DNA of 64,000 bases, taken from the NCBI GenBank assembly GCA_016926875.1, contig JAFGNU010000017.1:62001-126000 (forward strand). The letters are read 5' to 3'. Each line of letters opens with the position of its first letter. The stretch's first letter is position 1. The notes beneath the pieces are model-generated. The model did not search any database. It worked only from the letters and a program-made list of their open reading frames with translations, and was not told where the DNA came from. This DNA comes from Anaerolineae bacterium (GTDB lineage Bacteria; Chloroflexota; Anaerolineae; Aggregatilineales; Aggregatilineaceae). Made by a program: the position numbers and the translations under genes. Below, piece by piece: positions 17,267 through 41,669 of this stretch.

Positions 17267-18106
17267 CTACGCTACCTGCACGCGCACGTAGGGCGATAGA
17301 ATCTGCTCCACGTCATCCGGCAGCGCAGGCGGCACCGTGACCTGCCCGCGCAGCCCGCCCGTCACCTGGACAAAGCCCGCGTCTTTCTGCTTGTACAGCC
17401 AGCTTGCCACGCGCAAACACGCCTGCCGGATGTCGTCGGGCGGCTGGTAGACCTCGATGGTCGTGTCCTGGACATGGCTGGTTGCGGTCGTGCCGTTCAC
17501 GCCGCGCGCAACCGTCAGCCGGTTCAGCGTCGTGTTGATCGCCAGCACATGCAGGTATTCATCCTCGATGCGGATCAACTGGCCGACCGCGAACCGCTCA
17601 AACTGGCCGGTTGCGTCCGCCCCGTCGGCGTCCTCGACCAGCAGCAGGATCGCGCCCGCGTTCAACGGGTCGTTCTGCACGCTGTCCTGCGAATCAGCCC
17701 AGGCGTCCGGCCAATCCAGGTGATAGCCCCATGTGCCGTCTACTTCGATAGCTTCGATGGGATCGCCGTCATGGGTGAAGGCCGCCTGCGTCCGGTCCAG
17801 CAGCACGCTCGATACCACCGCCGCCCCGGACGGGTGCAGGTGGTAAGCCGAAGCCGGGATCGTGCTGCCGTCGCCGTTGGTCAGCGTGTGCAGCGCCAGC
17901 AGATCGCCGCGCAGCGAGAGCGCCGCCGGGTTATCGCAGTCATACGCCTGTGCTGCCCGTTCCGGGTAAAAGCGCCGCCCGGTATAACCCTCGATCAGCC
18001 GGGATGCCGCGCCCAGCACCCGCAGCAGCAGGTCGTCGTCGCCGGTCTGCGAATCAGACAGGCCCAGGTAGCGCCGTACATCGGTGAGTGTTGCGTAGAT
18101 ATTCAT
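17267..18106 (-). CDS. Phage head-tail connector (gp6-like) protein
   Basis: The 279-residue protein starts MNIYATLTDVRRYLGLSDSQ and continues with a helical N-terminal region (LLRVLGAASRLIEGYTGRRF) typical of gp6-like head-tail connectors. The family also shows the closing helices seen here (IRQACLRVASWLYKQKDAGF). It is longer than the usual ~100-200 residues because of a beta-rich middle insertion (~residues 90-225). The insertion includes a segment like those of virion decoration domains (LIRIEDEYLHVLAINTTLN). The AGGAGG ribosome site supports ATG 18106. The protein would join the portal ring to the tail. Confidence 0.75.
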   Translation of the reverse strand: MNIYATLTDVRRYLGLSDSQTGDDDLLLRVLGAASRLIEGYTGRRFYPERAAQAYDCDNPAALSLRGDLLALHTLTNGDGSTIPASAYHLHPSGAAVVSSVLLDRTQAAFTHDGDPIEAIEVDGTWGYHLDWPDAWADSQDSVQNDPLNAGAILLLVEDADGADATGQFERFAVGQLIRIEDEYLHVLAINTTLNRLTVARGVNGTTATSHVQDTTIEVYQPPDDIRQACLRVASWLYKQKDAGFVQVTGGLRGQVTVPPALPDDVEQILSPYVRVQVA

Positions 18107-19003: not shown

Positions 19004-20830
19004 CTACACGGTCAGGTTGTATAGGACGCTCGCCACCTCGGTATCAAAGCGCGCAAACGCCAGCCGCACGGTTGCCACCATCTGGTAAGCATCGTAGTAC
19101 GGCAGGTAGTCCATCGTGGCCGCGACCCGGCGGCGGTAGCCCACCACCCAGCCGGGCCGGTAGACGCACACCGCCTGCCCCTTGGTATTGCCGGTGGCGT
19201 TGGCCTTGCCGTCCGCCTGCGTGAGCGGCATCTCCGCGCTGACCAGCACCGGCACGCCGTCCACCTTGGCGATCTCGCCGGTCAACACGGTGGCGTGCGG
19301 ACCAAACTTGTCGACCGTCGCCACGTCATCCAGGCTCAGCAGCTTGGCATACGTGCTACCATCCACGATCCAGGCGCAGTCCGTCGGGCGCAGGGCATAG
19401 CGGGGCAGCATCAAAAAGCGCGTGGTGCGCAGCAGCGCCACCGTCGGCGCACCGTTGGCGTCCTGGGCGTTGTCGGTATTGGTCACCAGCGGCAGTTTGC
19501 GCAGCCCATCAAAGGCCAGGTATTTCACCGTGCTGTCCGGCGCGCCGTCGTCGCTGTTGATGTTGCCGGTCGCGCCGGTTTCGGTATCGCCGTTGAGCAG
19601 CACGTGATCGATGGCGTCCGCCATGACGCACAGCGCCTGCTCGCGGTAGAGCGGGATCAGCGGGATGGTCGTATCTTCGACCAGTTCCGCCGAAAAACCC
19701 ACGCGCAGCGCCAGCTTTTTGGCGGTCAGCGTGACCTTGCCGCTCCCGACCGGGCTGTCGGGGATCGGGTTGGCGCTGCCCAGCGTCAGATCGGCCTCGT
19801 CCTGCGTTTCCGGCACGTAGTACACCGCCGGATCGGTCCCGGCGATGGGCAGTTCAAACGGGTTGGACGGCATCTCGATCACGCGAAACAGCGGCAGGAC
19901 CACGTTTTCCGCGCGCGCCTTGCGCCACAGTTCGCTGGACCAGATGTCCGGCACCCATTCCGCGCCGTAGCCGGTGTTGTCAGTGTGCATCAACTCGTCG
20001 GATTTGACCGGCAGCGCGCGCAGCGCCCCCGCGTCAAGCTGGCCCTGGTCAACCGCCTGAAACGCCTTGTAGGCCAGTTCGCGCATAAAGGCATTGGTCG
20101 GCGCCCACTGCCCGCTGCGGCTCAGCCAAGTGTGCATGAACGCCATATCGACCGCATCCAGCCCGGCGTACTTGCTGTGCACCTCGATGTGCGGCGCGCT
20201 CGGACGGGGCGCCGTCTGCGCCGCCGGGAGCCGTTTGATCGCGTCGCCGCCCTGTGCATTGTGTTGGTTGCTCATCATCCCTCCATCCACCTCGCGTATA
20301 CATTGCCCGTCGATTGGTTCAATCCGGTCGGTCGACAGGCCCAACGCCCGGAACGCCGCCTTGACCGCTACCGCGTCGGTGTAACGCGGTTCGGCGGGCG
20401 TGGGCGTCAGGCTGCCCTCGACAATCGGCCAGCGCCGAATGTGCCCGTTGGCGGCCACCTCGACCAGGTGCGGCAAACTGCCGCTGCTCCAGCCGAGCGC
20501 CTCCTGCCCGACCAGGTCCAGCACCGCCCGCGTCCAGCGATCCCGCAGGTCAAGCTGCGCCTCGACCCACACGCCGACCTCGTCCGGTTGCAGCGCGGTG
20601 ATCTGCCCGATCATGACCGGGCCGAGCGCACCGTCCAGCCCGTGCTGGTAGAGCACCGGGCGGCGCGGGTACCAGTCCAGGCCCAGGTCGGTGCCCGGCG
20701 TGAAGTACTCGCCCTGCAAATCCGGGCGCGACCGGTCGCCCCACACCACCAGGTAGCCGCCGATCCGCCCGTTCGCGTCCAGCGTTTTGACCGCCGTTGT
20801 GACCGGCGCGCGGACTGCGTGTTGTGCCAT
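19004..20830 (-). CDS. Fused prohead protease-major capsid protein (HK97 type)
   Basis: The ATG at 20830 has a clear AGGAGG site; the open frame extends further up but lacks such a site. Residues ~15-160 match the S78/HK97 prohead protease: a His in VLYQHGLDG (His63) and a Ser in ALGWSSGSLPH (Ser115/116). After a ~80-residue linker, residues ~240-608 match an HK97-fold capsid protein: the N-arm, then the segments YYVPETQDEADLT and LRVGFSAELVEDTTIPL, with a closing RRRVAATMDYLPYYDAYQ. The protease would cut itself off as the shell matures. The catalytic residues are retained. The gene is first in its unit and follows the SOS-like promoter. Confidence 0.85.
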   Translation of the reverse strand: MAQHAVRAPVTTAVKTLDANGRIGGYLVVWGDRSRPDLQGEYFTPGTDLGLDWYPRRPVLYQHGLDGALGPVMIGQITALQPDEVGVWVEAQLDLRDRWTRAVLDLVGQEALGWSSGSLPHLVEVAANGHIRRWPIVEGSLTPTPAEPRYTDAVAVKAAFRALGLSTDRIEPIDGQCIREVDGGMMSNQHNAQGGDAIKRLPAAQTAPRPSAPHIEVHSKYAGLDAVDMAFMHTWLSRSGQWAPTNAFMRELAYKAFQAVDQGQLDAGALRALPVKSDELMHTDNTGYGAEWVPDIWSSELWRKARAENVVLPLFRVIEMPSNPFELPIAGTDPAVYYVPETQDEADLTLGSANPIPDSPVGSGKVTLTAKKLALRVGFSAELVEDTTIPLIPLYREQALCVMADAIDHVLLNGDTETGATGNINSDDGAPDSTVKYLAFDGLRKLPLVTNTDNAQDANGAPTVALLRTTRFLMLPRYALRPTDCAWIVDGSTYAKLLSLDDVATVDKFGPHATVLTGEIAKVDGVPVLVSAEMPLTQADGKANATGNTKGQAVCVYRPGWVVGYRRRVAATMDYLPYYDAYQMVATVRLAFARFDTEVASVLYNLTV

Positions 20831-20878: not shown

Positions 20879-20921
20879 CAGCGGCCAGCCCAACGCCGAC
20901 CGCCCCACGTTGACAATTCCA
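20879..20921. repeat. 43-bp leader repeat, copy beside the capsid promoter
   Basis: See 18148-18190 (39 of 43 bases identical). This copy abuts the 30-bp SOS-like promoter element. Confidence 0.7.
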
Positions 20922-20948
20922 GTTTAGCACAAATGTTCTGTTTGTCTA
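20919..20948 (-). promoter_or_regulatory. SOS-like box and promoter of the capsid unit
   Basis: These 30 bases are identical to 33622-33651 upstream of the terminase unit. On the minus strand they give TAGACA (20948-20943), a 16-base spacer, then TAAACT (20926-20921). The spacer holds GAACATTTGTGC (20938-20927), one base away from the GAAC-N4-GTTC box of Gram-positive-type LexA. The box lies ~97 bases before the capsid start. The remaining sequence to 21297 contains no gene: only a hairpin (21032-21058) and a short palindromic repeat (21209-21237). Confidence 0.65.
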
Positions 20949-21058: not shown

Positions 21059-21208
21059 GCGGGGTAAGCGGAGCACTTCTTGTTTGAGCTTGTTGCTATA
21101 TCAACTACGCCTCCTCATTGGCTGATCCCCTTTCTTTCCAAAATCTACGAAACAGTTTGTATCTCCGCAGATTCAGGGTCAGCCAACATCAGCGTGTTGG
21201 TGTTTTGG

Positions 21209-21237
21209 GTAGGGACGACTCGGTGAGTCGCCCCTAC
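21209..21237. repeat. Short core copy of the GTAGGGGC palindrome
   Basis: A GTAGGG...CCCCTAC hairpin with CGACTC/GAGTCG arms matches one of the two hairpins of the 98-bp element. Confidence 0.6.
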
Positions 21238-21297
21238 GCAGTATGCAGGTTTTAGTTGGTTTCTCCGTAGTTCGCTATTGATATTTGCCCTGTGCAC

Positions 21298-23229
21298 CTA
21301 ATCTGCTGCTACGATCTCCACGTGGGCCGGGCTGCTGGCTTCTTTGGGCTGCGTCAGCAGCGATACCACGATCAACACCACAAAGCTCAGCGGAATGGAG
21401 ACAATGCCAGGGTTATCCAGCGGGAACGGGGCTTCGGCGTCAATGCCGTAGCGCTCATACATGGCTGGCGAGAGCAGAATCAGCACCAGGGCCGTTACCA
21501 TTCCGGTGAAGATCGAGGCAGCGATACCTTTGGCCGTCGTCTTTTTCCAGAACAGCAGCATCAGGATAGCGGGCAGGTTGGCCGAAGCCGCTACCGCAAA
21601 CGCCAGTCCCACCAGGAACGAGACGTTTACTCCTTTGAAGTAAATGCCGAGCAGGATGGCTACACCTCCTACCAGGACCGCTGTGATCTTGCCAACGACC
21701 ACCTGCTGCGTATCCGACAGGTTGATGCGCATGAAGTTGCTGGTCAGGTCATGAACAACCGCACCCGACGCAGCCACGATTAACCCGCTGACCGTGCCTA
21801 ACACAGTCGCGAACGCCAGCGCCGAGATGATGGCGAACAGCGCTGTGCCAAAATGCTTGGCCAGCAGCGGGGCCGACATATTGTCACTCGCCACGTCCAA
21901 AACACCGTTGATCATTGCACCGAGACCCATATAGAGCGTCAAGATATAGAAAAACCCGATGGTTGCAATCGCCACAATGGTCGATTTGCGGGCTGCCTGT
22001 TGGCTGGGTACGGTGTAATAACGGATCAGGATGTGAGGCAGAGCGGATGTCCCAAAAAACAGCGCCAGCATCAGCGAGATGAAGTTGAGACGCGAGGACG
22101 TGGTAGCGCCCTCATCCACCTTGAACTTGACACCGGGCCGTAACAGCTTTTCGCCGGAAGTGATGTTCTGGTACCACAACTGCACGTCGTCGCTCTCGAA
22201 GGTGAACGACTCCTTGCTGAAGCGTACGATGGTGCTGTCCTCGATGATCGACAAGAACTCAGCCGGATTGAGGCTACCGGTCGAATCGACCGGCTGGCCA
22301 TCGACGATGATCTGATTGAAGCTGCCGACCTGGTAAAATTCCTTATTTTCCTGCGGCTCACCGTTGTAGAGTTTTTCTTTGCCGGTATCCACGATAGACA
22401 GCGTTTCGCGCAGGACGGGCGGTTCGACGCCGGTATCCAGCGCCCACCACGTGGCGATGCCTTCGCGGCTGAGTTCAGCGAAGTGCAGATCGCCCTCGGT
22501 GTGCTGGCCGGAAAGCTCATATTCGCTTCCCTCGGCCAGCGTGATCCGGTTATCTGCGTCGAACGTGACCGGCAGCGTTTGAAACTCGTGGTAATCCTCG
22601 CTGGGCTTGAGGTCAAAGCCGTTCCTCAGCACCAGGATCGCCAGGATGGTTGAGAAGACAATCAGCAAACCACCCTTGAGGAACTGCACGTAGGTGGTCG
22701 AGGCCATCCCGGCGGCGGCCACGATCACGATCACGATGGCACCCACGATGATCACGCCAACGTAGTGCGGCATCCCCAGCAGCGGACGGACCAGCGCACC
22801 AGCTCCGACCATCTGCGGGATCAGGTAGCACAGCGAGACAACCAGCGTACTGATACCGGCCATCAACTGGATACCACGTGAATTGAACTTGGCGTCGAGC
22901 GCGTCTGAGAAGGTGTATTTGCCCAGTCGTTTTAGCGGTTCGGCCACCACGAACAGGGCAACAATCCACCCGGCCAGGTAGCCGATGGAGTAGAGGAACC
23001 CATCGTAGCCGACGGTGGCGATCATGCCAGCGATTCCCAGGAAGGAAGCGGCTGACAGGTAATCGCCTGCGAAAGCGATGCCGTTGACGCCCCAGTGGAT
23101 GCGACCACCGGCTGCGTAAAAGCCGCTGGCGGTATGGGTGCGTCGGGCAAAGTAGAATGAGATACCCAGTACGGACGCCGCGAACATTACGAACAGGGCG
23201 ATCACGCCCGGTGAGGGATCGTAGATCAT
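21298..23229 (-). CDS. Sodium:solute (cation-acetate, ActP-like) symporter with large inserted domain
   Basis: The 643-residue protein is a polytopic member of the sodium:solute symporter family. The motif RIHWGVNGIAFAGDYLSAAS resembles ActP. Residues ~205-380 are a hydrophilic insertion, probably on one side of the membrane, which explains why it is longer than the ~550-residue E. coli ActP. After it the transmembrane core resumes with MLALFFGTSALPHILIRYYT. The start codon overlaps the stop of the YjcH/DUF485-like gene by four bases (ATGA), so the two are coupled. Its substrate is probably acetate or another short carboxylate (inferred from the partner). Confidence 0.88.
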   Translation of the reverse strand: MIYDPSPGVIALFVMFAASVLGISFYFARRTHTASGFYAAGGRIHWGVNGIAFAGDYLSAASFLGIAGMIATVGYDGFLYSIGYLAGWIVALFVVAEPLKRLGKYTFSDALDAKFNSRGIQLMAGISTLVVSLCYLIPQMVGAGALVRPLLGMPHYVGVIIVGAIVIVIVAAAGMASTTYVQFLKGGLLIVFSTILAILVLRNGFDLKPSEDYHEFQTLPVTFDADNRITLAEGSEYELSGQHTEGDLHFAELSREGIATWWALDTGVEPPVLRETLSIVDTGKEKLYNGEPQENKEFYQVGSFNQIIVDGQPVDSTGSLNPAEFLSIIEDSTIVRFSKESFTFESDDVQLWYQNITSGEKLLRPGVKFKVDEGATTSSRLNFISLMLALFFGTSALPHILIRYYTVPSQQAARKSTIVAIATIGFFYILTLYMGLGAMINGVLDVASDNMSAPLLAKHFGTALFAIISALAFATVLGTVSGLIVAASGAVVHDLTSNFMRINLSDTQQVVVGKITAVLVGGVAILLGIYFKGVNVSFLVGLAFAVAASANLPAILMLLFWKKTTAKGIAASIFTGMVTALVLILLSPAMYERYGIDAEAPFPLDNPGIVSIPLSFVVLIVVSLLTQPKEASSPAHVEIVAAD

Positions 23230-23534
23230 GCTGCGACCTCCTCGTTGTCCGCTGTGTTAGCGGCTGTTTCTTTGGCGAAACGTTCCACACGGGTGCAGAT
23301 CGAATTGTAAATCAGCCCCAACACCAGGGCCAGTACGATGAGGCCAAACCCGTAAACAACTGCCAGGTTGAGGCCAAAGACGATGGATTCGCCCATAGTT
23401 TCAGGGCTGATGGTATTGATGACTACGAAACCGGCGTAAATCAGGCCGTAAACGAAAAACAGTATTAATCCAACACGGGCTTTGTAGGTTGAAGCTTTGT
23501 CCTCGGGGAGTTGACTAGCCGGACTATGCCTCAT
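23226..23534 (-). CDS. YjcH/DUF485-like small membrane protein, symporter partner
   Basis: The 102-residue protein has two transmembrane segments (RVGLILFFVYGLIYAGFVVI and LAVVYGFGLIVLALVLGLIY) and cytoplasmic ends. This is the usual DUF485 layout of the small protein found next to ActP. The ATG at 23534 follows TTGGAGGA. It overlaps the symporter gene by four bases, forming a two-gene operon. The exact function of DUF485 proteins is not known. Confidence 0.85.
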   Translation of the reverse strand: MRHSPASQLPEDKASTYKARVGLILFFVYGLIYAGFVVINTISPETMGESIVFGLNLAVVYGFGLIVLALVLGLIYNSICTRVERFAKETAANTADNEEVAA

Positions 23535-23746
23535 AAATCATCCTCCAATTCAAGAGTAATCTTGACGCTCCGCAACTATAGCCTAAATTGTACTTGTGCC
23601 GCAACCGTTTTATATGTACAGGCTATACAAGGCAGGGTAACCCAGCATGTCGATTAACGGTGCTGGGGGTGTACCAACACACCCGACTGAAACCTGCTAT
23701 TTTTTTAAGCGTGACGCTTATTCGTGAAAAAACGGGGATCAAACAC

Positions 23747-23767
23747 CGCCGCGTGGAGGGGCGGCGG
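23747..23767 (-). terminator. Putative terminator after the Uma2/DUF433 region
   Basis: On the minus strand CCGCCGC / GCGGCGG (7 bp) is followed by a short T-rich stretch, ~25 bases past the DUF433-like remnant. Confidence 0.45.
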
Positions 23768-23789
23768 GGTGAGTGGCAGGGGATGCGCG

Positions 23790-23912
23790 TTATTCGTCGG
23801 CGGACTGGTTTTTCTGCTGCATGCGGGCGATGTTTTCGACTTTGAAGCGCGTCCCGGCAATGACGGGCTTGCTGTCCCGTATTTCGATGTAGTTGATTGG
23901 TATGACGGTCAT
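23790..23912 (-). pseudogene. Truncated DUF433-type antitoxin remnant (40 codons)
   Basis: On the minus strand an ATG with an AAGGAT ribosome site starts a 40-codon frame. It reads YIEIRDSKPVIAGTRFKVEN and then ARMQQKNQSADE before TAA. This matches the N-terminal half of DUF433 proteins, which are normally ~75-110 residues and often antitoxins of PIN-like toxins. The frame stops where the family continues with a helix after SADE. It lies 67 bases after the Uma2 gene. The rest of 23535-23979 contains only a terminator hairpin. Confidence 0.55.
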
Positions 23913-23979
23913 GTTTGATCCTTCAGCGGATTCGTTTCTCCACCATCAGCCCGTTATCGAGCAGCACAGTGTACGCGCC

Positions 23980-24528
23980 CTACTCCGGGAATACCGCGCT
24001 GACGGCTACCTCGAAGCCGGGCAGCACCTCGCCGCCGCCCAACGTCGCGTCGCTGCCCAGGCGTTGGACCGGCTGGCCGGGGACGTACACCTCGATGTTC
24101 TGTGGTTCCGGGCGCACGACCCACACCACCGTACCCGCCGCCAGGTAATTCGCCACCTTGACCCGCAGCAGATTCAGGTCATCGGACGGGGACAGCACTT
24201 CGACCGCCAGGTCGGGAGCGTTGGGGTTGTATGCATCGTGCGAGGGGTCGGGTTGGCGTGCCTTCGAGATGAACGCCGCGTCGGGGATGTAGCGCTCGCC
24301 GGATACCTGGTAGCCGCCGTCCGCCCCGGTGACGTAGCCCAGTTCATGACGCTGGACATGTACCACTATCTGCGCCAGAATCAGCGCCGCGATCATTGAT
24401 GCATAGTTATTCGATACCACCTCGACCACCTCCCCTCCAACGTATTCCAGCCGCCGGTCGGCGTTCTCCGGCAGCGGCACCATCTGATCAAATTCTTCGA
24501 CCGTATACCGCTTCGTTGCTACGACCAT
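23980..24528 (-). CDS. Uma2-family PD-(D/E)XK nuclease-like protein
   Basis: The 182-residue protein has the Uma2 (DUF820) layout: an opening YTVEEFDQMV, the core strands IPDAAFISK and PDLAVEVLSPSDD, and a later KVANYLAAGTVVWVV. The spaced Asp, Glu and Lys fit the restriction-endonuclease-like active site. It ends with the usual LPGFEV. The frame would continue for 18 more codons after the TAG stop, which may be a remnant of an older end. These genes are abundant in Chloroflexota and cyanobacteria; their role is unknown. The gene appears to be monocistronic or paired with the DUF433 remnant. Confidence 0.8.
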   Translation of the reverse strand: MVVATKRYTVEEFDQMVPLPENADRRLEYVGGEVVEVVSNNYASMIAALILAQIVVHVQRHELGYVTGADGGYQVSGERYIPDAAFISKARQPDPSHDAYNPNAPDLAVEVLSPSDDLNLLRVKVANYLAAGTVVWVVRPEPQNIEVYVPGQPVQRLGSDATLGGGEVLPGFEVAVSAVFPE

Positions 24529-24578
24529 AGCTCAACTCCCTGATGCTCTTTGCTCCTCATTGTACCGCAATAAGACGT

Positions 24579-24621
24579 GAAACCGCCGGGCGGCGATCTG
24601 ATCACCACACCCGGCGGTTTC
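24579..24621 (-). terminator. Terminator of the TIR-HEAT gene
   Basis: A perfect 12-bp stem (GAAACCGCCGGG / CCCGGCGGTTTC) lies ~85 bases past the minus-strand stop at 24706. Confidence 0.6.
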
Positions 24622-24705
24622 CTCTTCCCACACCCTGAATCCAGGGCGCCCTACCCGTCCGGCCAGCCGCTCTCCAGGCCCGCCGGACGACCCGATCGTT
24701 TCCGG

Positions 24706-26277
24706 CTAATTCTGCTCAGCCGTATCGATCTCGACCTCTGTACTGACCTCTGCCTCGTCGGCATCCGGCTCCGGTTCGCCGCGCCACAACTTGACTGCGG
24801 CCTGCGCTTCCGGTGTATCGATGCGCCTCAGCGCTTCGGCGGCGGCCCAGCTTGCCTGCCAGCCCGTGTTGTGCAGCGCTTCCATCAGCGCCGGGACTGC
24901 CAGCTTGCCCATGCCTTGCAGCGCTTCCGCCGCCGCATAGCGCACATCCCAGTCCGCATCATCCAGCATAACAACCAGTCCCGGAATCGCAGGCTCTCCG
25001 ATCTCGACCAGCGCGTGGATCGCCACCGGGCGCACCCGTTCATCGTTTTCGCGCAGGGCAGCCAGCAAGGGCGCAACGGCAGCTTCCCCGATCCGCCATA
25101 ACGCCTCGGCTGCGGCCCAACGCGCGCGCCAGTCGCGGTCACGCAGCTTATCGATCAAGCCCGGCACCGCCGCCGCATCGCCGATCCGGCCTAACGCCGA
25201 AGCAGCCGAGATACGGACTTCATGTTCGGAGTCACGCAGCGCCCTGACCAGGTCGGGCACCGCCGAAATGTTTCCTGTATTGGCGAGCGCTTCGGCTGCT
25301 CGCCAGCGCACGCGCGCTTCGGGATCGTGCAGCGAATCGATCAGCGCCGGGACCACGTCCTCGCCGCCGATGTCGCCCAGCACGTCCGTAGCGTGCAGCC
25401 GGATCTGCCAGTCGGCATCGTCCAGCGCATCGATCAGCACCGGGATGGCTGGTTCGCCAATGTCGCGGAGCGCGGCGGTGATAACCATCACGTTCCCCCC
25501 ACCGCCAAACGGGCCGGGCGCCCGCACGCGCAGCGTATCCAGCAAGACCGGGACCGCTGCCACCGCTTTGATCTGGCCCAGCGCCCGCGCTGCCACGTCC
25601 CGCGCGCGCCAATCATTGCCGCGCAGCAGCTTGATCAGCGCCGGGATGGCCGCCTTGTCGCCCAACTCACCCAACCGCTGGATGGCAGCAATACATGCTT
25701 CCCGGTTATCCCCGCGCTCCAACCGCTCGATCAGCTTCTCGACCGTCTCCGTCTGAATCCCCTGATCGGGACGGCGGTTGTTGTTCGCGTCCTCGCGGCG
25801 TTTGATGCGCTCCAACAGGCTGCCGGATGGTTGCTGCAACGGCGATCCAAACGGCACCGCATTGCGAGACGGCCTGGCCGGTACCGACGGCCCGCTGCGG
25901 CAGGCATTCTGCACCTGCCGGATCAGCTTGCCCCAGGGCTGAGCGTCCGGGTCGCTGAAATCCAGGCGCGGCAGCGCTTCCAGGCGTGGGTGGATGTCGG
26001 CGGGTTTCAGCACAATTGGGATGACGGATACCCCCACACCCAACGCGAACGTCCACTCGTACATCATGTGCTCAGACGCGCTGGCGTCCGATGGTTGGAT
26101 CACGAGCAGGGCAAACGCATCGCGGATCGCCTGATCGATCGATTCGCGCCACTGCCCGTCCGCACGCAGCCGTTCAGTGTCCGACCAGACCCGGAACCCG
26201 GCATCCTCAAGCTGGCGGATCAGGTCGGCAGCAAACGCTGCGTCTTTAGGTTTATACGAGATATACACATGGCCCAT
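24706..26277 (-). CDS. TIR domain protein with HEAT repeats
   Basis: Residues 1-~135 are a TIR domain: MGHVYISYKPKDAAFAADL, then a cysteine-free core with Glu74 in MMYEW at the place of the catalytic Glu of NAD-cleaving TIRs. Residues ~185-500 are about ten HEAT/PBS-lyase-type repeats of ~31 residues (for example DWRARWAAAEALWRIGEAAV). The 523-residue protein ends in a short acidic tail. TIR plus a repeat scaffold is typical of bacterial immune or signalling proteins, where repeats sense a partner and TIR acts on NAD. That role is an inference. It is a single-gene unit with a terminator. Confidence 0.88.
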   Translation of the reverse strand: MGHVYISYKPKDAAFAADLIRQLEDAGFRVWSDTERLRADGQWRESIDQAIRDAFALLVIQPSDASASEHMMYEWTFALGVGVSVIPIVLKPADIHPRLEALPRLDFSDPDAQPWGKLIRQVQNACRSGPSVPARPSRNAVPFGSPLQQPSGSLLERIKRREDANNNRRPDQGIQTETVEKLIERLERGDNREACIAAIQRLGELGDKAAIPALIKLLRGNDWRARDVAARALGQIKAVAAVPVLLDTLRVRAPGPFGGGGNVMVITAALRDIGEPAIPVLIDALDDADWQIRLHATDVLGDIGGEDVVPALIDSLHDPEARVRWRAAEALANTGNISAVPDLVRALRDSEHEVRISAASALGRIGDAAAVPGLIDKLRDRDWRARWAAAEALWRIGEAAVAPLLAALRENDERVRPVAIHALVEIGEPAIPGLVVMLDDADWDVRYAAAEALQGMGKLAVPALMEALHNTGWQASWAAAEALRRIDTPEAQAAVKLWRGEPEPDADEAEVSTEVEIDTAEQN

Positions 26278-26594
26278 AGGATCAACACTCCCTGCTTACC
26301 CTCGCGCCCCAATGGCGCACCGTATCCAATGCTTCTAGAGTGTATAGCTGGGAGAGCACGGCAGCCGCAGTCCGGCCCAGAACTGCGCTGGCCGCCGCCA
26401 TAAAGGGGACTGTCACATTGAAACAGGGAATGTCCCGCTTACCATACACCCTAGCACAAGCCCCAATTTGGATAAGTAGAAAAATACCGGTAACTGGTTG
26501 GGTATATAGATAAGCGTGACGAAACTCATTATACTACTGGTTGTGAACTTTGTATACTACCTTAAGGCCGATTGGCAGAAACATCAATTGTTCT

Positions 26595-27692
26595 ATGACA
26601 GTTCGCCCACTTTTTGCTAACACATCAAGGCAACAGTCCCCTACAGGGGGCGTCAAACACCTGAGCAGCATGGCGCTGATCCTGTTGATCGTCGCCGCGC
26701 TGGACCTGGCATACATCACGCGCCCGCTGAAATATGACGAGCGCTTCACGCTGGAACACTATGCCATCACGCCGGACCGGGCGCTGTTCAGCTATTCCAC
26801 GCCCAACAACCACATGCTGCATTCGCTGCTGGTGTGGAGTATGACGGCGCTGGCAGGCGATTCGCGGGTGGCGGCGCGCTTCCCGACTTTTGCGTTGGCG
26901 CTGATCTCGGTGGCGCTGACTTACCGGCTGGCCCGCCGGATGCTCGATCCGCCAACCGGGCACGCGGCGGCGGCGCTGCTCGGCTCTACGCTGGCCTTCG
27001 CGGAGTATTCGATCAACGCGCGCGGCTATACGCTGACGCTGGTCCTCACGCTGCTGCTGGCCGAACGCCTGCTGTATCCCGATCACGCGCTGACCCGCTG
27101 CTGTCGCCGGGCGGTGCTGTTTATCTGCGGGGCGCTGGTCCTGACGCTGCCCTCGATGATCGTGCTGATTGGGGCGGCGGCGCTGTGGCTGGCGTGGGAT
27201 GCGGGACGCCTGCCGCTCCGGGCTTACGTGCACCGCTGGCGCCCGCTGATCGTGGGAGCAGGAATTGGCGGGCTGTTCTACGTGCCGCCGCTGATCGTCG
27301 GGGACATGCAGAGCCATATGCAGCGCTTTGGTTACACCGACCCGCTGGAAACATTCACCGGTTGGCTGGGCATGGTCTTCAGCACGGACGGGGCAAGCGT
27401 AGTGTTCGCGGTGGGGTGCCTCGTGGGCGGGGTGGCGCTGTGGACCCGGCCCCGGCTGCGACCGGTTCGCCGCTGGACGCTGGCCGCGCTGGGCTGCGCG
27501 CTGGTCCTGGGGCTGGCGCAGTGGGCGCTGACGGGCAGGCTGTTTTACCCGCGCAACTATTTATACCTGCTGGCGGTGCTGTGCCCGGTGGGCGGGCTGG
27601 GCCTGCGGATCATCTTCGGACGGCACGTGACGTGGGTCGCCGCCGGGCTGCTGCTGGTGAGCGCGATCCCGTTTCAGGCGCTGGGGGGATAA
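26595..27692 (+). CDS. Polytopic membrane glycosyltransferase-like protein (GT39/ArnT type)
   Basis: The protein has about nine hydrophobic segments and an early loop with KYDERFTLEHY. The acidic Asp/Glu pair in the first extracytoplasmic loop is a mark of GT-C enzymes such as PMT and ArnT. These use lipid-linked sugars to glycosylate surface molecules. It is shorter (365 residues) than most family members, so it may be a minimal version. I chose ATG 26595; TTG 26550 and ATG 26670 are alternatives, as no strong ribosome site is visible. Confidence 0.7.
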   Translation: MTVRPLFANTSRQQSPTGGVKHLSSMALILLIVAALDLAYITRPLKYDERFTLEHYAITPDRALFSYSTPNNHMLHSLLVWSMTALAGDSRVAARFPTFALALISVALTYRLARRMLDPPTGHAAAALLGSTLAFAEYSINARGYTLTLVLTLLLAERLLYPDHALTRCCRRAVLFICGALVLTLPSMIVLIGAAALWLAWDAGRLPLRAYVHRWRPLIVGAGIGGLFYVPPLIVGDMQSHMQRFGYTDPLETFTGWLGMVFSTDGASVVFAVGCLVGGVALWTRPRLRPVRRWTLAALGCALVLGLAQWALTGRLFYPRNYLYLLAVLCPVGGLGLRIIFGRHVTWVAAGLLLVSAIPFQALGG

Positions 27693-27720
27693 AAAACGGG
27701 GACGTTCCGCGAACGCCCCC
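27690..27720 (-). terminator. Terminator of the GH17-like gene
   Basis: On the minus strand a GGGGGCGTTC / GAACGTCCCC stem is followed by GTTTTTT. It overlaps the last codons of the convergent membrane gene. Confidence 0.7.
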
Positions 27721-27732
27721 ATCAACCAGCGC

Positions 27733-29178
27733 CTACTCCTCGGACCATTCAAAGCGGATGTCATCCAGGTAGATGGTAGTAGTGGGTTCGGTGGTATTGG
27801 TCACCCACACAAAGCCGCCCATGATGTGGCTGAGGTCCTGCCGGTACAGCGAGATCGTATACTGCTGCCACTCCGCCGAGAGCCTCATCATGTCGGTTTC
27901 TTTGGGATTCTCCATCGAATCGCACACATCGCCAGCAGCCGTTCGCAGCCCGCCGACTTTAAATTGCGCGATCTCGCCGCCGTTCTCGCCCCTGGCCCAG
28001 AATGTAAGCCTGGTCCAGCCGCGCAGATTATAGCCGCCTTTTTCTTCACACCAATCGCTGCCTGGGGGATACCACCAATATATTCCGGCCCAACCGGCGT
28101 TACAGGAAGCCGATGGCGTGTAGGTGATGCGAATCGCATCGCTGCCCGAATGGGGATTGCTCTGATCCTCCTCATCGACGTCGATGTCATTGTAGCAACC
28201 CATCCAGCCCTCTGGCACAAAGTGGTTATCCGGAGCCTCGAAATCAGCATACACGTAAAAAGGCGGGTAGCCTTTGGTGATATAGTTGGCCGCAGCCTTT
28301 GGCGTCCGGTCGCTGGCGAACAACCCCCAATGCTCGCCTACACCGTCTTCAACCTTCCAGGGCTGATCGAACGCCTCGAAGTACACAAACCGTATACCGC
28401 TGTCACGCATATACAGATAGTACTCCGCCTGCTGGTACTCGCTAAGGTCTTCATCGCCTGCCGTTGGCAGCCCGACCTCCTTCAAAACAACGGCAATATC
28501 CCCGGTCAACGCCTGCAAGCCGTCGTATTTTTCCTGCGTCCAGTCAAACGCCTCAACCGGATCAAGATAGTTCTGCCAGTAAGGATGCACCGTTGGGAAA
28601 ATCCAGTCACCAACAGTTAACAGCGCCTCGTCGGTGGAATACAACGACACAACATCGGTTGTGGTAACGGGCTTTCCGGTCTGCTCGCGCAGATCGATGA
28701 TCGCGGCCTTCAACGTGTCGAAGTCGTAGCGGCCAAAATTGATCCCCTCGTTGCCAACCACGTAGCCGTCCACGTCCGCCGCCGCCGTTACTGCCGCCAT
28801 TGTTTCATCGGGATCACCGGGCGTCCAGATGCCCATCACCACGCCCTCGAAACCGGCTTCACGCGCCAGCCGGGGCACGTTGGACAGGACACCGCCCGCG
28901 CCATACGTCACGATCCCCCGAAAACCCGCCTCGTACAGCACGCGTAAATCCTCGGCCATATCGGCGTCGGCAGGCACCACAGGCGGGTCAGATTCCGGGT
29001 TGTAGTTGGTCGGGGAATAAGCTACCCAGGGAAAGCTGTCGAACTTCTGGATCAGTGCCGCCGTCAAATCGTCCTGCGCATGACCGCCCGGCAGACAAGG
29101 CGCGGTCATCGCCCAAACCAGGGTGATGATCACACACACCAACAAATTTCGTTTCCCAAAACGCTTTAGTCCCATCAT
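27733..29178 (-). CDS. Secreted GH17-like glucanase with C-terminal jelly-roll domain
   Basis: A signal peptide (NLLVCVIITLVWAMTAPCLP) precedes a TIM-barrel region of residues ~40-320. GYVVGNEG carries the likely acid/base Glu and VVLKEVGLPTAG the likely nucleophile Glu, as in exo-beta-1,3-glucanases of GH17. Residues ~330-481 form a beta-sandwich carbohydrate-binding-like domain with RLTFWARGENGG and a closing IYLDDIRFEWSEE. This domain resembles the C-terminal domain of the TIR protein just upstream. The ATG at 29178 has an AGGAGAT site. It would act at the cell surface or outside. Confidence 0.8.
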   Translation of the reverse strand: MMGLKRFGKRNLLVCVIITLVWAMTAPCLPGGHAQDDLTAALIQKFDSFPWVAYSPTNYNPESDPPVVPADADMAEDLRVLYEAGFRGIVTYGAGGVLSNVPRLAREAGFEGVVMGIWTPGDPDETMAAVTAAADVDGYVVGNEGINFGRYDFDTLKAAIIDLREQTGKPVTTTDVVSLYSTDEALLTVGDWIFPTVHPYWQNYLDPVEAFDWTQEKYDGLQALTGDIAVVLKEVGLPTAGDEDLSEYQQAEYYLYMRDSGIRFVYFEAFDQPWKVEDGVGEHWGLFASDRTPKAAANYITKGYPPFYVYADFEAPDNHFVPEGWMGCYNDIDVDEEDQSNPHSGSDAIRITYTPSASCNAGWAGIYWWYPPGSDWCEEKGGYNLRGWTRLTFWARGENGGEIAQFKVGGLRTAAGDVCDSMENPKETDMMRLSAEWQQYTISLYRQDLSHIMGGFVWVTNTTEPTTTIYLDDIRFEWSEE

Positions 29179-29220
29179 GATCTCCTGTAACAGACTAACT
29201 TTAGCGTTATCTCAACACGC

Positions 29221-30354
29221 TCAAGGCGTGCCAAAACCGAACCCGCCGATACACACACTGCCCTCTTGATCAAGGTGATAACTGGCCCCAATGGTCAGGT
29301 ATTCCAGGTTGTCCAGATCAACTTCGTGTTCCTCAAACGTAGACAAGGGAATAACGATCCGCTGCGCTCCCTCGAACAACGGTTGGATGTTTTCACGCCA
29401 CTCATTACCGCCCGCGTCTATCAGGCTGACCCGAAACTGCTCGCCGCCCGTTTCTCCCTGTGCCCAGAACACCAGATGGGTAGCACCGCCCACCACCTGT
29501 AAATCCGGCGGCAGTTGGATTTTGCACCCGGCAAAACTGTTGCGCCGCGACACGTCCCACGTGAGACGGGCGGCATCCGGCACGCCAGGCAGATCACACT
29601 GTTCATCCGGCAGAAACAGCAGGCCCCCCTCGCCCTCAAACTTACTCGCCTTGCACAGCGATTTGAGCTGCCCCGCCGGGAACAATGTTTGTTGGGGAGT
29701 GGGCATGGGCGCCGGTGTTTGCTGCGGTGTAGGAATCAGCGTCTCGGTTGGGGAAAGCGAAGTAGATACGACCGTCGGTGTCGCAGTTGATAGTTCGGCA
29801 GCCTTGATGGGATTGTTGATGGGGCAGGCTGCATCACAAAACAGGCCGGTCACCACCGCCAGAACGACAACAAATGCTATCTTCAACGGTAAACCGATAT
29901 GCTTTGGGAGTTTTGATCTGGGTGGGGGTGGCGGGCATAACTTCTCCGGTCCCACGCCCATTAGTTCAGCTATTGCACGCCTTAATTCTATGAATCCGTG
30001 TTCCTCATCCTCAACAAAACTGATGCGTTGGATACGACCATAGCGAAAAGGGATATCCTTTTCGGGCACCGATCGCAGCATTAGCAACATGAGGGATTTC
30101 GCTGTACGGTCGGCATAGTCCCATTCGTCGAGTACGTTCTTGCTCGTGACGCTTTCCGGGGTCATGACGCCGATAACCACGTCCGACGCTTTCAATCCCG
30201 CGAAAACGGCATCGTCCCAGCCCTTTTTTCCCGGCGTGGCATAAGGAATGTCATCCACATCGAGCCATGTTTCACAGCCCCACGTCCGCAGTCGTTCATC
30301 CAAACGCCGGGCGAACGCCAAATCTTCACGCTTGTAGCTGATAAAAACTTGCAT
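29221..30354 (-). CDS. TIR domain protein with one TM segment and an outer jelly-roll domain
   Basis: Start ATG 30354 follows GGGGGAAG. Residues 1-~135 are a TIR domain (MQVFISYKREDLAFARRL), with Glu77 in LDEWDY at the catalytic position. A Pro-rich stretch leads to one transmembrane helix at ~157-173 (LKIAFVVVLAVVTGLFC), then a Thr/Pro/Gln linker. Residues ~230-377 form a beta-sandwich with HLVFWAQGETGG. The domain order predicts TIR inside and a sugar-binding-like domain outside, like a receptor. The outer domain resembles that of the GH17-like neighbour (42-base gap), suggesting an operon or shared ligand (inference). Confidence 0.85.
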   Translation of the reverse strand: MQVFISYKREDLAFARRLDERLRTWGCETWLDVDDIPYATPGKKGWDDAVFAGLKASDVVIGVMTPESVTSKNVLDEWDYADRTAKSLMLLMLRSVPEKDIPFRYGRIQRISFVEDEEHGFIELRRAIAELMGVGPEKLCPPPPPRSKLPKHIGLPLKIAFVVVLAVVTGLFCDAACPINNPIKAAELSTATPTVVSTSLSPTETLIPTPQQTPAPMPTPQQTLFPAGQLKSLCKASKFEGEGGLLFLPDEQCDLPGVPDAARLTWDVSRRNSFAGCKIQLPPDLQVVGGATHLVFWAQGETGGEQFRVSLIDAGGNEWRENIQPLFEGAQRIVIPLSTFEEHEVDLDNLEYLTIGASYHLDQEGSVCIGGFGFGTP

Positions 30355-30431
30355 CGCTTCCCCCAACAGCAGTATCAGAGAATATGACCATTGTATCATA
30401 AGTATTTATAGTTTTATGAATACTTAGAGAA

Positions 30432-30468
30432 TCAAAACAGCGCCAATCACTGCCTGGGATTGACGCTG
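30432..30468 (-). terminator. Terminator of the terminase-portal unit
   Basis: On the minus strand CAGCGTCAATC / GATTGGCGCTG (11 bp, one mismatch) is followed by TTTTGATT, 25 bases past the portal stop codon. It makes the unit self-contained. Confidence 0.7.
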
Positions 30469-30492
30469 CTGTTAGCCGTGATACAAGCTCGC

Positions 30493-31779
30493 TTATTCTC
30501 CCGCGGCCACCTCACCGGGCGGCGGCTCGACTTCAACCGGCACGCCTTCATCCTCCGGCGCGGGATCGCGCACCGGTTCATTTTCCGCCCCTGTGTCCGT
30601 CTCAGCCTCCGGCCCATCGCCCCAGGGCACTGGCCCAAGCTGGAAGTAGCGCGCCCGGATTTCGTTCACGCTCAGCACGCCGCGCGCCGCGCGGATTTCC
30701 TCGAAGGTGGCCGATTTGTCCTGCGGGCGGATGTCGTCAAAGCACCCAACGAGATCGCCCGCATAAAACGGCAGCAGGTCGGTCGTGATCTTCTCCGCGA
30801 TACGCACCAGCTTCGGCCACAGCGTCCGCTCGATGAACACCCGCTCGCCGACCAGCGCGTTCGCCTCGGTCGCGTTCTCGCTGAACATGCCGACCGGGAT
30901 GCCGAATATCTGGAAGATTTCCTCGCGGTTGAAGCGCCGCGCGTTCAGAAAGTCCATGTCCTGCTGGCTTAGCCCGACGTTGTGCCACTCCACCGACGCG
31001 CCGCGCAAAAAGGCCGTCTTGCGCTCGCGTCCACCGTAGGCCGTGCGCCACTCGCGCTTGAGCCGCTCAAAGTCGGCGTCACTCACCCGCTCGCGGATCG
31101 CCACGATGCCCGCCGGGACGGCCATTCCCTCGCCAAAGTAGCGCCGGTTCCAGTCGGCCATCGCCCGGTCGGACTCGACCGCCAGCCGCGCCGCTTCGAG
31201 CGCGCTCAGGCCGTAGTAGTCGTTGGCCGGGTGCCAGCGCCGGAAGTGCACCACCTCGGATGCGTCCAGCGGCACGCGCCGCCCGTCCACCTCGTAGATA
31301 TAGCCGCGCACGCCGCGCACCGGGTCCGGCACGATGCTGACGCGATCCGGGCGCAGCGGCCACAGTTCCAGCGGCGGACCGCCCGCCTGCCCCGCCAGGA
31401 ACCAGTAGGCGTTGCCGTGAATTTCCAGGTGCCCAACCGTGTGTTCGAGCAGCTCAAAGCGGCTCATCAACGGATTCGGACGCCGCAGCAGGCGCTCAAA
31501 AGGATGATCCGCGATCTCGATGGTCTGCTCGCCCACGCGCGCCAGCACCCGGAAGGGCACCAGCGCCGCCGCCTCGGCGATGCGGTTGACCGCCACGTAC
31601 ACCCACGGACTACCCATGTACACGCCCGCGTACCGGCTCGCCTGTCCAAACTCCGGCGGCGTTTCCGGCAGCGGTTCCCCGATCACCGCCGACTCGACGC
31701 GCTGGATCACGCTGGCCGGTCGCCATTTCACATAGCCGATCCGCCGCAGCACCCGTTCGATTAGCGTTGTATTCGCCAT
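30493..31779 (-). CDS. Phage portal protein (HK97 type)
   Basis: The 428-residue protein matches the HK97 portal family in length and layout: WVYVAVNRIAEAAALVPFRV, then HPFERLLRRPNPLMSRFELL, then HGNAYWFLAG, ELWPLRPDRVSIV and the later NREEIFQIFGIPVGMFSEN helix region. The acidic, Pro-rich C-terminal tail is typical. Portals form the 12-subunit ring at one capsid vertex for DNA packaging. The ATG at 31779 follows AAAGGGACAGG. It lies 90 bases after the large terminase, in standard phage order. Confidence 0.88.
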   Translation of the reverse strand: MANTTLIERVLRRIGYVKWRPASVIQRVESAVIGEPLPETPPEFGQASRYAGVYMGSPWVYVAVNRIAEAAALVPFRVLARVGEQTIEIADHPFERLLRRPNPLMSRFELLEHTVGHLEIHGNAYWFLAGQAGGPPLELWPLRPDRVSIVPDPVRGVRGYIYEVDGRRVPLDASEVVHFRRWHPANDYYGLSALEAARLAVESDRAMADWNRRYFGEGMAVPAGIVAIRERVSDADFERLKREWRTAYGGRERKTAFLRGASVEWHNVGLSQQDMDFLNARRFNREEIFQIFGIPVGMFSENATEANALVGERVFIERTLWPKLVRIAEKITTDLLPFYAGDLVGCFDDIRPQDKSATFEEIRAARGVLSVNEIRARYFQLGPVPWGDGPEAETDTGAENEPVRDPAPEDEGVPVEVEPPPGEVAAGE

Positions 31780-31869
31780 GTGTCCTGTCCCTTTCTACTA
31801 CCAATCAGGTTTGATGCTCATCCGGTGCTTAGCCATCAATGAGCCGGTAAAGCTGGCCTCACCACCCGC

Positions 31870-33060
31870 CTATACAAAACTGATGCCCGGCGCGGCGTTG
31901 GTCGCCCCGTGCCATGCCAGCGCCAGCGCGATCACCGTGTCGTCGTGATCGCCCGGCGGCGCGCTGTAGCGAAAGCACCCACTCGGCAGGCGTTCCAATG
32001 CATACGCCTGGAGTTCGCCCATCAGCACCGGGTCGGGCAGGATCGCCAGTTCGCCGCGTTCGAGCGCCAGCGCCAGCGATTCGATCAGCGGCCCCTTGCT
32101 GCTGGCCGTCATGGTGAAGGGCATCACTGGCAGGCCCTCGGTTTGCAGCGCCTCGATGTTTGGCCCGCCGATGCTGTTTGCCTCCGCCCAGATGGCATCC
32201 GGCTGCCACCGCTCCGCCACCGCTGCCAGCCGCCCGCGCTGCAAGCCCCAGCCGATCTCATTGAAGCGGTCCAGCGCCACCAGCCGCCGCTCCGTGACCG
32301 ACAGCACCGCAATGGCCGTGAAATCGTTGTCCCGCCCCCAGTCCACGCCGAACACGACCCGCTCGCCGGGCAGCGGCGCCGAGCGCGCGTCCGCCGTTGC
32401 CGCCGCTTCCACGCGCCGGAACACGCCGCCCGTATCGGCCAGGAACTCCGCGAGATATTCTTGGCGGAACAGCCGCTCCGGCAGCAGGGCGCGCGCCGCC
32501 TCGATCTCCGCCGGGTCGATCAGCGGGTTAGCCGACGTCGGGAAGCGCCAGCTTTGCCACTGGGACTGCGCCGGGTTCTGGCCCAGCATGTACAGCCCCC
32601 AAAACCAGTTGCGCCCGCGCGGCGTGCTCAGGAACAAGCCTTCCCCGCGCCGGTCGGCCAGCGCCGGGCGGATGGCCGCCGCCCACACGTCCGGGTGCAG
32701 GTAGGCTGCCTCGTCCAGCACGGCCACGTCCAGCCCGGACCCGCGCAGATCGTCGGGGTTGTGCCCGCTGCGCACCACGATCACGCCGCCGCCCGGCAGT
32801 TCGATGCGCCGCATATCTTCACACTTGACCCGCCACACCCCGGACAGGCTCGCTTTCAGCCCCCGCCACACATCGTCGGCCATGCGATACGTCGGGCTGA
32901 TCCACCAGCCGGTCAGCCCGTCCAGCGCACGCTCAATCAGCAGAATCTTGCCCGTCTCCGTCTTCCCGAAGCGGCGACCGCAGGCTACCACTTTGAAGCG
33001 GGCCGGGTGCCGCAGGATGTCGATCTGCCCAGGGTGTGGTTGATACAGGTTGACCGTCAC
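31870..33060 (-). CDS. Phage terminase large subunit
   Basis: The 396-residue protein keeps both activities. The ATPase has Walker A ACGRRFGKTE (residues 26-35) and Walker B VAVLDEAAY (Asp116, Glu117). The RuvC-like nuclease has VVFGVDWGRDNDFTA (Asp240, Asp244) and PPGDHDDTVIAL (Asp371, Asp373/374) near the end. It would cut and pump DNA into capsids. The GTG start at 33060 has GGAG ten bases upstream and lies inside the previous gene, an overlap of 128 bases. All active-site residues are intact, which argues against simple decay. Confidence 0.9.
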   Translation of the reverse strand: MTVNLYQPHPGQIDILRHPARFKVVACGRRFGKTETGKILLIERALDGLTGWWISPTYRMADDVWRGLKASLSGVWRVKCEDMRRIELPGGGVIVVRSGHNPDDLRGSGLDVAVLDEAAYLHPDVWAAAIRPALADRRGEGLFLSTPRGRNWFWGLYMLGQNPAQSQWQSWRFPTSANPLIDPAEIEAARALLPERLFRQEYLAEFLADTGGVFRRVEAAATADARSAPLPGERVVFGVDWGRDNDFTAIAVLSVTERRLVALDRFNEIGWGLQRGRLAAVAERWQPDAIWAEANSIGGPNIEALQTEGLPVMPFTMTASSKGPLIESLALALERGELAILPDPVLMGELQAYALERLPSGCFRYSAPPGDHDDTVIALALAWHGATNAAPGISFV

Positions 33061-33463
33061 GGCTCACATACTCCACGCGAATTGTTTGATCGGACGAAAA
33101 ATCGATCTGCCCCTTGTTCAGCACGCCGGTGCGCCGGATCAATCCCACCCGGTCCAGCACATCGCGCGCCGCCTGTACCGCCACCCGCGTATCGTCGCCT
33201 TCCAGCGCCCGCCGCAGCACGGCGACAGCTTCCGGCGTCAGCGCGTTCAGCGCCGCCAGCGTATCCTGCACCTGCCCGTTCTGCTGCATACAGCGCAGCA
33301 GCGCTGCAAAATCTTCGCTTGCCTGCCACGCGGCCAGCGTCGCCGGACGGACGCGCACCATCTGTGCCACCTCGTCCGCGCTGTGCCCCTCGGCCAGCAG
33401 CCGGATCGCGCGGCACACCCGCTGCTCAACCGGCGGGCGGTCGCGCTGTTTGCCCCCACTCAT
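32933..33463 (-). CDS. HTH protein, small terminase-like
   Basis: The ATG at 33463 follows GGAGGTGAG. The 176-residue protein has an N-terminal homeodomain-like HTH (VEQRVCRAIRLLAEGHSADE, then VAQMVRVRPATLAAWQ), as in many phage small terminase subunits. It is followed by a helical region (TLAALNALTPEAVAVLRRAL) for oligomerisation and a VLNKGQIDF segment. The last ~43 codons overlap the large terminase in another frame, so the natural C-terminus may be shorter, or a frameshift may exist. It is first in its unit, 160 bases after the SOS-like promoter. Confidence 0.7.
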   Translation of the reverse strand: MSGGKQRDRPPVEQRVCRAIRLLAEGHSADEVAQMVRVRPATLAAWQASEDFAALLRCMQQNGQVQDTLAALNALTPEAVAVLRRALEGDDTRVAVQAARDVLDRVGLIRRTGVLNKGQIDFSSDQTIRVEYVSRDGQPVSTTPWADRHPAAPGPLQSGSLRSPLREDGDGQDSAD

Positions 33464-33621
33464 ACGACTCACCTCCACTCGCCATCCAGGCAGGCGCCCC
33501 CACCATCGACCGGCACGCCCGGCCACCTGCACAGGACTCACCCTCGCGGCTCTCGTTAACGGCACCTGCTGCCCACCCGCTGATTTTCAGGTCCGCGCCC
33601 GCCCAGGTGACCGGGATGATC

Positions 33622-33651
33622 CCAGTTTAGCACAAATGTTCTGTTTGTCTA
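33622..33651 (-). promoter_or_regulatory. SOS-like box and promoter of the terminase-portal unit
   Basis: The 30 bases are identical to 20919-20948. On the minus strand they give TAGACA (33651-33646), a 16-base spacer holding GAACATTTGTGC (33641-33630), and TAAACT (33629-33624). Similarity continues weakly ~20 bases further upstream. The rest of 33464-33884 has no gene that I can support. Confidence 0.65.
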
Positions 33652-41232: not shown

Positions 41233-41478
41233 TCACCCGGTATCATCTTCATCCGGCAGGTTCCACACACCGCCGATCACCTCAATCGACCGGCGGCCTG
41301 AGATCAGGATGCGCCGTTCGATCTGAAGCTTCATCAAGTGGTAGCTGACGGTGGATGTGCTGAGCATACACTCCTTTGCAATTTCCGTGACCGTTGGCGC
41401 CAGCCCGTCATGCTCGCGTTTGTAATCGACAATGAATTGAAAAATCTGCTCGCGGTTCGGTGAGTGATCACCACGCAT
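41233..41478 (-). CDS. LexA-type winged-helix protein without peptidase domain
   Basis: ATG 41478 follows GGAGGG. The 81-residue protein is a single winged helix of the LexA N-terminal type (IFQFIVDYKREHDGLAPTVT, then EIAKECMLSTSTVSYHLMKL, then GRRSIEV). Full LexA is ~200 residues, with an S24 self-cleaving domain that is absent here; the frame ends with an acidic tail. It cannot therefore be inactivated by RecA-driven self-cleavage. The upstream region carries a strong promoter with a perfect GAAC-N4-GTTC palindrome, suggesting autoregulation. It may compete with or replace full LexA at such boxes, including those of the phage-type units (inference). Confidence 0.75.
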   Translation of the reverse strand: MRGDHSPNREQIFQFIVDYKREHDGLAPTVTEIAKECMLSTSTVSYHLMKLQIERRILISGRRSIEVIGGVWNLPDEDDTG

Positions 41479-41615
41479 TGTGATCCCTCCGTCCAGGCTG
41501 GTCCCGACCGCGCAGCCAAAACCGGGCACGGCTCCCCGACCGCATCGCCCGGCGGGCTGCACACCCGCTGTATCCGTCCGAGATCATCTCATCACCCCTG
41601 TATGTGTCACAAATA

Positions 41616-41669
41616 GAACACATGTTCGACAGCAGGATCAGTATATACGATACGTCACAGGCTTGTCAA
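41616..41669 (-). promoter_or_regulatory. Promoter with a perfect SOS-like operator before the LexA-type gene
   Basis: On the minus strand TTGACA (41669-41664), an 18-base spacer and TATACT (41645-41640) are followed 12 bases later by GAACATGTGTTC (41627-41616). This is a complete GAAC-N4-GTTC palindrome. The operator lies where transcription would start, as expected for self-repression. It is ~138 bases before the ATG. Confidence 0.7.

Follow-up and report, generated by a model that had tools for sequence, protein, structure and literature searches.

A LexA-type winged-helix protein lacking an S24 domain, its conserved SOS-type box, and nearby phage-type genes with LexA-type boxes in a Chloroflexota lineage

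The mini-LexA gene, its protein and its promoter

The minus strand of the window (the whole 64-kb stretch of DNA that was analysed) encodes a small protein, here designated mini-LexA, which is preceded by a short leader open reading frame (ORF) and a promoter that includes a palindromic box. The features encountered at this locus are the following:

41233..41478, minus strand: mini-LexA, 81 aa, LexA-type winged helix only, with a conserved GGxW tail (ORF starting at ATG)
41468..41587, minus strand: leader ORF, 39 aa, overlapping the mini-LexA start, behind a Shine-Dalgarno-like motif (AGGGGTG)
41616..41627, minus strand: SOS box GAACATGTGTTC (GAAC-N4-GTTC), 12 nt past the -10, at a conserved position
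41640..41645, minus strand: -10 element TATACT of mini-LexA, conserved in 15 orthologs
41664..41669, minus strand: -35 element TTGACA of mini-LexA, conserved in 15 orthologs

A preliminary description of this DNA had proposed that the protein consists of a LexA-type winged helix alone, which was borne out by the profile match to LexA_DNA_bind (Pfam PF01726; 25.0 bits, cut-off 23.7), by the predicted fold, and by the end of the ORF, which stops after the wing, with an oxidoreductase gene in convergent orientation behind it. The TIGR00498 model of LexA scored below its threshold (18 bits, cut-off 110.95), and hhalign of mini-LexA against LexA gave 98%. The AlphaFold model (pLDDT 79, low in the tail) matched LexA first among known folds, with 3k2z and 3jso on top, and the comparison with the DNA-binding domain of Escherichia coli LexA (1lea) gave a TMt of 0.80 and an rmsd of 1.3. 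Matches obtained with PADLOC showed weak wHTH similarity and nothing else. An alternative GTG start would extend the protein to 109 aa, and the conserved part starts at the ATG.

Orthologs of mini-LexA were detected in 15 of the 18 genomes of the family, encoding proteins of 74-86 aa that are 42-60% identical over the full alignment and share the conserved tail IEVxGGxW, with dN/dS values of 0-0.13 for close pairs. No mini-LexA of any type was found in the family genomes G010 and G011 (75% and 87% complete, respectively). Neither an S24 peptidase domain, nor an Ala-Gly cleavage site, nor a Ser-Lys pair was found in the ORF or in any of the 15 orthologs, and mini-LexA contains no S24-like domain even in degenerate form, as is encountered in RogA. 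A sequencing error or mis-assembly that masks an S24 domain was ruled out, as the orthologs derive from independent assemblies and are equally short. The uncleavable nature that had been ascribed to mini-LexA thus appears genuine, and mini-LexA is encoded alongside a full-length LexA of 225 aa that includes the S24 domain.

The promoter comprises TTGACA, 18 nt, TATACT, 12 nt, and GAACATGTGTTC, and in its context the box forms the 14-mer CGAACATGTGTTCT, which is identical to the sequence given as the LexA box of Staphylococcus aureus yolD (PMC11442139). By count alone GAAC-N4-GTTC is at chance level in the 64-kb window (1 found, 0.92 expected). Within 250 nt upstream of the orthologs, the exact box was found in 15 of 15 cases, and 11 permuted control palindromes were not found at all (0). 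Moreover, the ortholog boxes are located at the same promoter position, 12-17 nt behind TATACT and with TTGACA/TATACT-like elements ahead, by which a chance box was rejected. It is this position and conservation, rather than the window count, on which the reality of the box is based, and the orthologs and their conserved box together remove both the sequencing-error and the chance readings. The promoter architecture noted earlier, i.e., TTGACA/TATACT with a palindrome just behind the -10, was consequently confirmed as a feature retained in 15/15 orthologs.

The leader of mini-LexA measures 137 nt. A leader ORF that ends at or overlaps the mini-LexA start is present in 9 of the 15 orthologs, and this retained position, despite a peptide sequence that is not conserved, suggests translational coupling to mini-LexA.

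Full-length LexA, the host SOS box and other mini-LexA types

A LexA match was obtained in 118 of 121 genomes of the order. The lexA promoter, TTGACATC[GAACATCGGTTC]GCTTTATAAT, carries the exact box TCGAACATCGGTTCGC, and an exact GAAC-N4-GTTC was found at lexA in 17/17 family genomes. At both lexA and uvrB this box is positioned immediately behind promoter elements or between them. Approximately 34 nt past this box lies a second one, GAACTATTGTGC; both were present in 15/15 family lexA promoters read for both. The second box was invariably GAAC-N4-GTGC in these 15 promoters, and this retained asymmetric GTGC half is also common to the capsid and terminase promoters described below.

The SOS regulon was read from selected stretches of the genome. 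Among these, uvrB carries GAAC-N4-GTTC directly behind the -10 (exact in 15 of 16 family loci, with a single mismatch in the remaining one), and the box is also found at several ssb promoters, while its flanks vary among uvrB, ssb, and lexA. For the two recA genes (G000:C73:9978-10763 and G000:C44:11592-12377) the upstream stretches examined contained no exact GAAC-N4-GTTC. On the basis of its conservation at lexA, uvrB, and ssb, GAAC-N4-GTTC is best read as the SOS box of this family, which makes mini-LexA, very probably, a member of the SOS regulon.

The same box recurs at VOC (glyoxalase/bleomycin-resistance-like) and lytic-transglycosylase-like genes (L087, L088, L217, and L225; L213, L224, L227, and L235), which are probable lineage-specific SOS genes. 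A mini-specific operator of the form GAAC-N2-ATGTTCTA was considered and rejected, as ssb, VOC-family, and transglycosylase genes carry it too.

Besides the type described here, two further types of proteins consisting of the LexA DNA-binding domain only (types 2 and 3) are common across the order. Upstream of type-2 genes the box was exact in 8 of 29 and within one mismatch in 25 of 29 cases, and for type 3 these numbers were 15/20 and 20/20, with control palindromes for both types yielding on average 0.09 exact matches and 1.4-1.7 within one mismatch. The recognition helices of the minis (STVxYHL, TVxRHL, and GVIRHL) differ from that of LexA (STSVVNYNL) and among themselves, and STVxYHL of mini-LexA is preceded by one residue less than the LexA helix. 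Ser and Val of the recognition helix are common to mini-LexA and GAAC-reading LexA proteins. All LexA proteins read from the order have the same LexA helix; the mini helices, by contrast, vary under the same, constant box, which favors LexA as the reader of the box and would place all minis in the SOS regulon, and we infer that LexA would also read the box in the mini-LexA promoter.

At three type-2 loci (L065, L066, and L067 in G012, G002, and G014, respectively), two fused boxes were observed approximately 20-50 nt downstream of the gene, which together form a 28-bp palindrome (GTGAACAAATGTTCGAACATTTGTTCAC), perfect or nearly so, and could represent either a terminator-like hairpin or a double operator for the next gene.

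Phage-type head and packaging units

The same strand of the window harbors two units of phage-type genes, together spanning positions 14169-33565 (minus strand), of which the identified features are:

17267..18106, minus strand: head-tail connector (PF05135, phrog_442)
19004..20830, minus strand: protease-capsid fusion, HK97-type (PF05065, phrog_10)
20919..20946, minus strand: capsid-unit promoter, with the variant LexA box GAACATTTGTGC (20927-20938) between -35-like and -10-like elements
30493..31779, minus strand: portal protein (PF04860, phrog_2662)
31870..33060, minus strand: terminase large subunit (phrog_2)
32933..33565, minus strand: terminase small subunit (phrog_2538)
33622..33649, minus strand: terminase-unit promoter, identical over its 28 nt to that of the capsid unit, with box GAACATTTGTGC at 33630-33641

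The capsid unit consists of the protease-capsid fusion, the connector, and uncharacterised genes, all on the minus strand, and the terminase-portal unit covers 30493-33565 on that strand. Small and large terminase subunits, portal, capsid, and connector could be identified, and the ORFs in 14169-17000 had no family match. The capsid is present in 15 of the 18 family genomes at 76-83% identity, and its dN/dS of 0.12-0.21 indicates purifying selection; a capsid match (E<=1e-10) was obtained in 84 of the 121 genomes of the order. Similarly, the terminase (small subunit) was found in 15/18 family genomes, the portal is 75-85% identical in 7 genomes, and a conserved open region at the place matching the connector was detected, via an overlapping frame, in 6 of 7 genomes. 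The locus is syntenic in 7 genomes.

Both units open with an identical stretch of 28 nt (GACAAACAGAACATTTGTGCTAAACTGG), and GAAC-N4-GTGCTA occurs in the window at these two unit promoters only (0.03 expected). In the better orientation GAACATTTGTGC matches the mini-LexA operator at 10 of 12 positions, a level of similarity that is common by chance in the window (57 found versus 42.5 +/- 7.4 expected). Within the family GAAC-N4-GTGC was found ahead of the terminase unit in 11 of 13 readable cases and ahead of the capsid unit in 9 of 15; most of the remaining units have a variant of the box with GGTC or GTTC. Outside the family GAAC-N4-GTGC precedes 12 of 16 capsid loci. The identical 28-nt promoters and the conservation of the GTGC form across genomes led to rejection of the possibility that these boxes are noise at the 9-of-12 level at which they had been noted originally. 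What stands from that earlier observation is that the boxes are real and conserved LexA-type elements, matching at 10/12 rather than 9/12 positions; their form is the variant GAAC-N4-GTGC, and not the GAAC-N4-GTTC of mini-LexA.

In viral contigs encoding a related capsid (48-64% identity) the portal adjoins the capsid, and none of the nine viral contigs has an exact GAAC-type box before the capsid, with a single contig having such a box elsewhere in the stretch read. From its gene content and promoters, the locus seems to be an old phage head and packaging locus that was domesticated, recurs across the order, and is subject to LexA-type control, and it is a candidate gene transfer agent (GTA).

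In 9 family genomes mini-LexA shares a contig with the capsid, the terminase, or both, at distances from less than 1 kb to approximately 37 kb and despite rearrangements. Broad synteny extends over the entire region within the family, and most minis of other families lie at least 90 kb from the capsid or on a different contig, so that a direct regulatory link can be put forward as a hypothesis only. Furthermore, the second lexA box has the same GTGC form as the box of the phage-type units, and LexA alone could thus control these units.

Proposed role of mini-LexA, alternatives and related systems

In the proposed mechanism, full-length LexA would occupy the box over the start of the mini-LexA promoter and keep the gene off, while also holding the repair genes and the phage-type units off. 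Upon DNA damage, RecA-triggered cleavage would remove LexA, whereupon mini-LexA would be produced alongside the repair genes, and the phage head and packaging units would be switched on as well from their weaker GAAC-N4-GTGC boxes. Mini-LexA lacks the S24 domain and could therefore not be inactivated by RecA; accumulating under these conditions, it would most likely rebind some of the GAAC-type boxes (the one at its own promoter, those of SOS genes, and those of the capsid and terminase units), and thereby cap or end their expression. We consider the chances of this explanation of an SOS-inducible, uncleavable, damping mini-LexA to be evenly balanced. Of its components, binding of mini-LexA to GAAC-type boxes appears slightly favored, and a damping role falls a little short of an even chance. 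Without the C-terminal dimerisation domain, DNA binding by mini-LexA may be weak, unless cooperativity is contributed by the GGxW tail or by the DNA. As a precedent, the N-terminal domain of cleaved LexA keeps some binding, and its degradation is needed for full induction in S. aureus and E. coli (reviewed in PMC11442139), which indicates that a bare LexA DNA-binding domain can matter at SOS boxes. Moreover, RogA of Caulobacter, an uncleavable LexA-like protein, restrains a gene transfer agent (PMC9632790).

The difference between the recognition helix of mini-LexA and that of LexA implies that its targets may be different sites, and mini-LexA could accordingly be a damage-induced member of the SOS regulon that acts at unrelated sites, and with a separate specificity, as a second-tier repressor or activator. 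The divergence of the three mini helices from LexA and from each other under a constant box agrees with this possibility, which we consider rather unlikely in view of the shared Ser and Val, the LexA-like appearance of the wing, and the fact that no alternative site was found. Slightly less probable still is a dedicated regulator of the neighboring phage-derived units with a role resembling that of Caulobacter RogA, as could be proposed from the shared contigs in 9 family genomes, the conserved GAAC-N4-GTGC boxes of both units, and the 34-51% identical relatives encoded by phages; the linkage may be passive in a broadly syntenic region, it is mostly absent in other families, and LexA alone can explain control of the units through the GTGC box that its own promoter shares. 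A shade more doubtful is the more elaborate possibility of an ancient, LexA-controlled capsid and packaging system (candidate GTA) in which the SOS-induced, uncleavable mini-LexA is the built-in brake or switch, setting for how long particle production continues in damaged cells once LexA is destroyed.

The preliminary description had considered mini-LexA to be self-regulated. Placement of a repressor's box over the +1 of its gene is indeed a classic autoregulatory layout, and autoregulation could coexist with control by LexA, but regulation chiefly through its own box and independently of LexA is improbable and not the best reading, as the same box with variable flanks precedes lexA (17/17), uvrB (15/16), and several ssb genes, which marks it as most probably the host LexA box, and as its core is unchanged when the mini recognition helix changes. 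Finally, a decayed or mis-assembled LexA devoid of function, which the presence of the N-terminal domain alone might suggest, is already refuted by the same short protein in 15 independent assemblies, the dN/dS of at most 0.13, and the conserved promoter, and retains a negligible probability. If the damping explanation is true, a repressor that is made only upon loss of its cleavable parent would provide the SOS response with a shut-off or delay arm that does not await LexA resynthesis.

Relative to LexA (TIGR00498; PF01726 + PF00717), mini-LexA shares the winged helix and the GAAC-N4-GTTC box at the promoter, but lacks the S24 peptidase, the cleavage site, and the C-terminal dimerisation domain, and has an altered recognition helix. 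The cleaved N-terminal domain of LexA, a ClpXP/ClpCP substrate in E. coli and S. aureus, is likewise a DNA-binding domain without the C-terminal domain and displays weak SOS-box occupancy (PMC11442139), whereas mini-LexA is a separate gene, proposed to be made when LexA is gone. RogA, compared by description, is similarly an uncleavable LexA-like regulator tied to a domesticated prophage, but it still has an S24-like domain, from which the catalytic residues are missing, and it represses gene-transfer-agent activators, its target being gafYZ (PMC9632790); in the case of mini-LexA there is no S24 domain and the boxes are directly at the capsid and terminase promoters. LexA control of GTAs in Alphaproteobacteria has been described for Rhodobacter capsulatus and Dinoroseobacter shibae (PMC6473078), and these share with the candidate Chloroflexota locus domesticated phage genes tied to the SOS regulator, although the latter belongs to another phylum and has boxes inside head-gene promoters that recur across the order.

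LexA-like GTA regulators in Alphaproteobacteria and phage proteins consisting of the LexA DNA-binding domain only are thus already known. The literature searched contained no description of a chromosomal, SOS-boxed, uncleavable mini-LexA across an order and near a LexA-boxed capsid locus, nor of genes for LexA-DBD-only proteins behind SOS boxes, encountered here in three types in an order of uncultured Chloroflexota, nor of a gene-transfer-agent-like element in this phylum. The presence across the order of capsid and packaging genes that carry LexA-type boxes suggests such an element, for which mini-LexA and LexA would be directly testable candidate regulators.

Stand-alone winged helices of similar size are encoded by phages (phrog_3502, of unknown function, and phrog_362, transcriptional repressor), and the phrog_3502 profile matched mini-LexA with an E of 7e-7 over 49 of its 131 residues. 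Mini-LexA itself was not detected in sequenced phage records by tblastn at E 0.01, and sequenced phages do encode LexA-DBD-only proteins that match the type-3 mini, e.g., orf42 of Shigella phage SfV and gp13 of Mycobacterium phage Cosmo. Ten viral contigs (IMG/VR; L258-L267) encode relatives of mini-LexA at 34-51% identity, and no SOS box was found upstream of these ten. Phage-encoded copies of the winged helix are located in early or replication operons. A phage origin of type-1 mini-LexA is possible on the basis of these relatives. Several of the viral relatives have the GGxW tail, and some are located beside RusA-like or methyltransferase-like genes.
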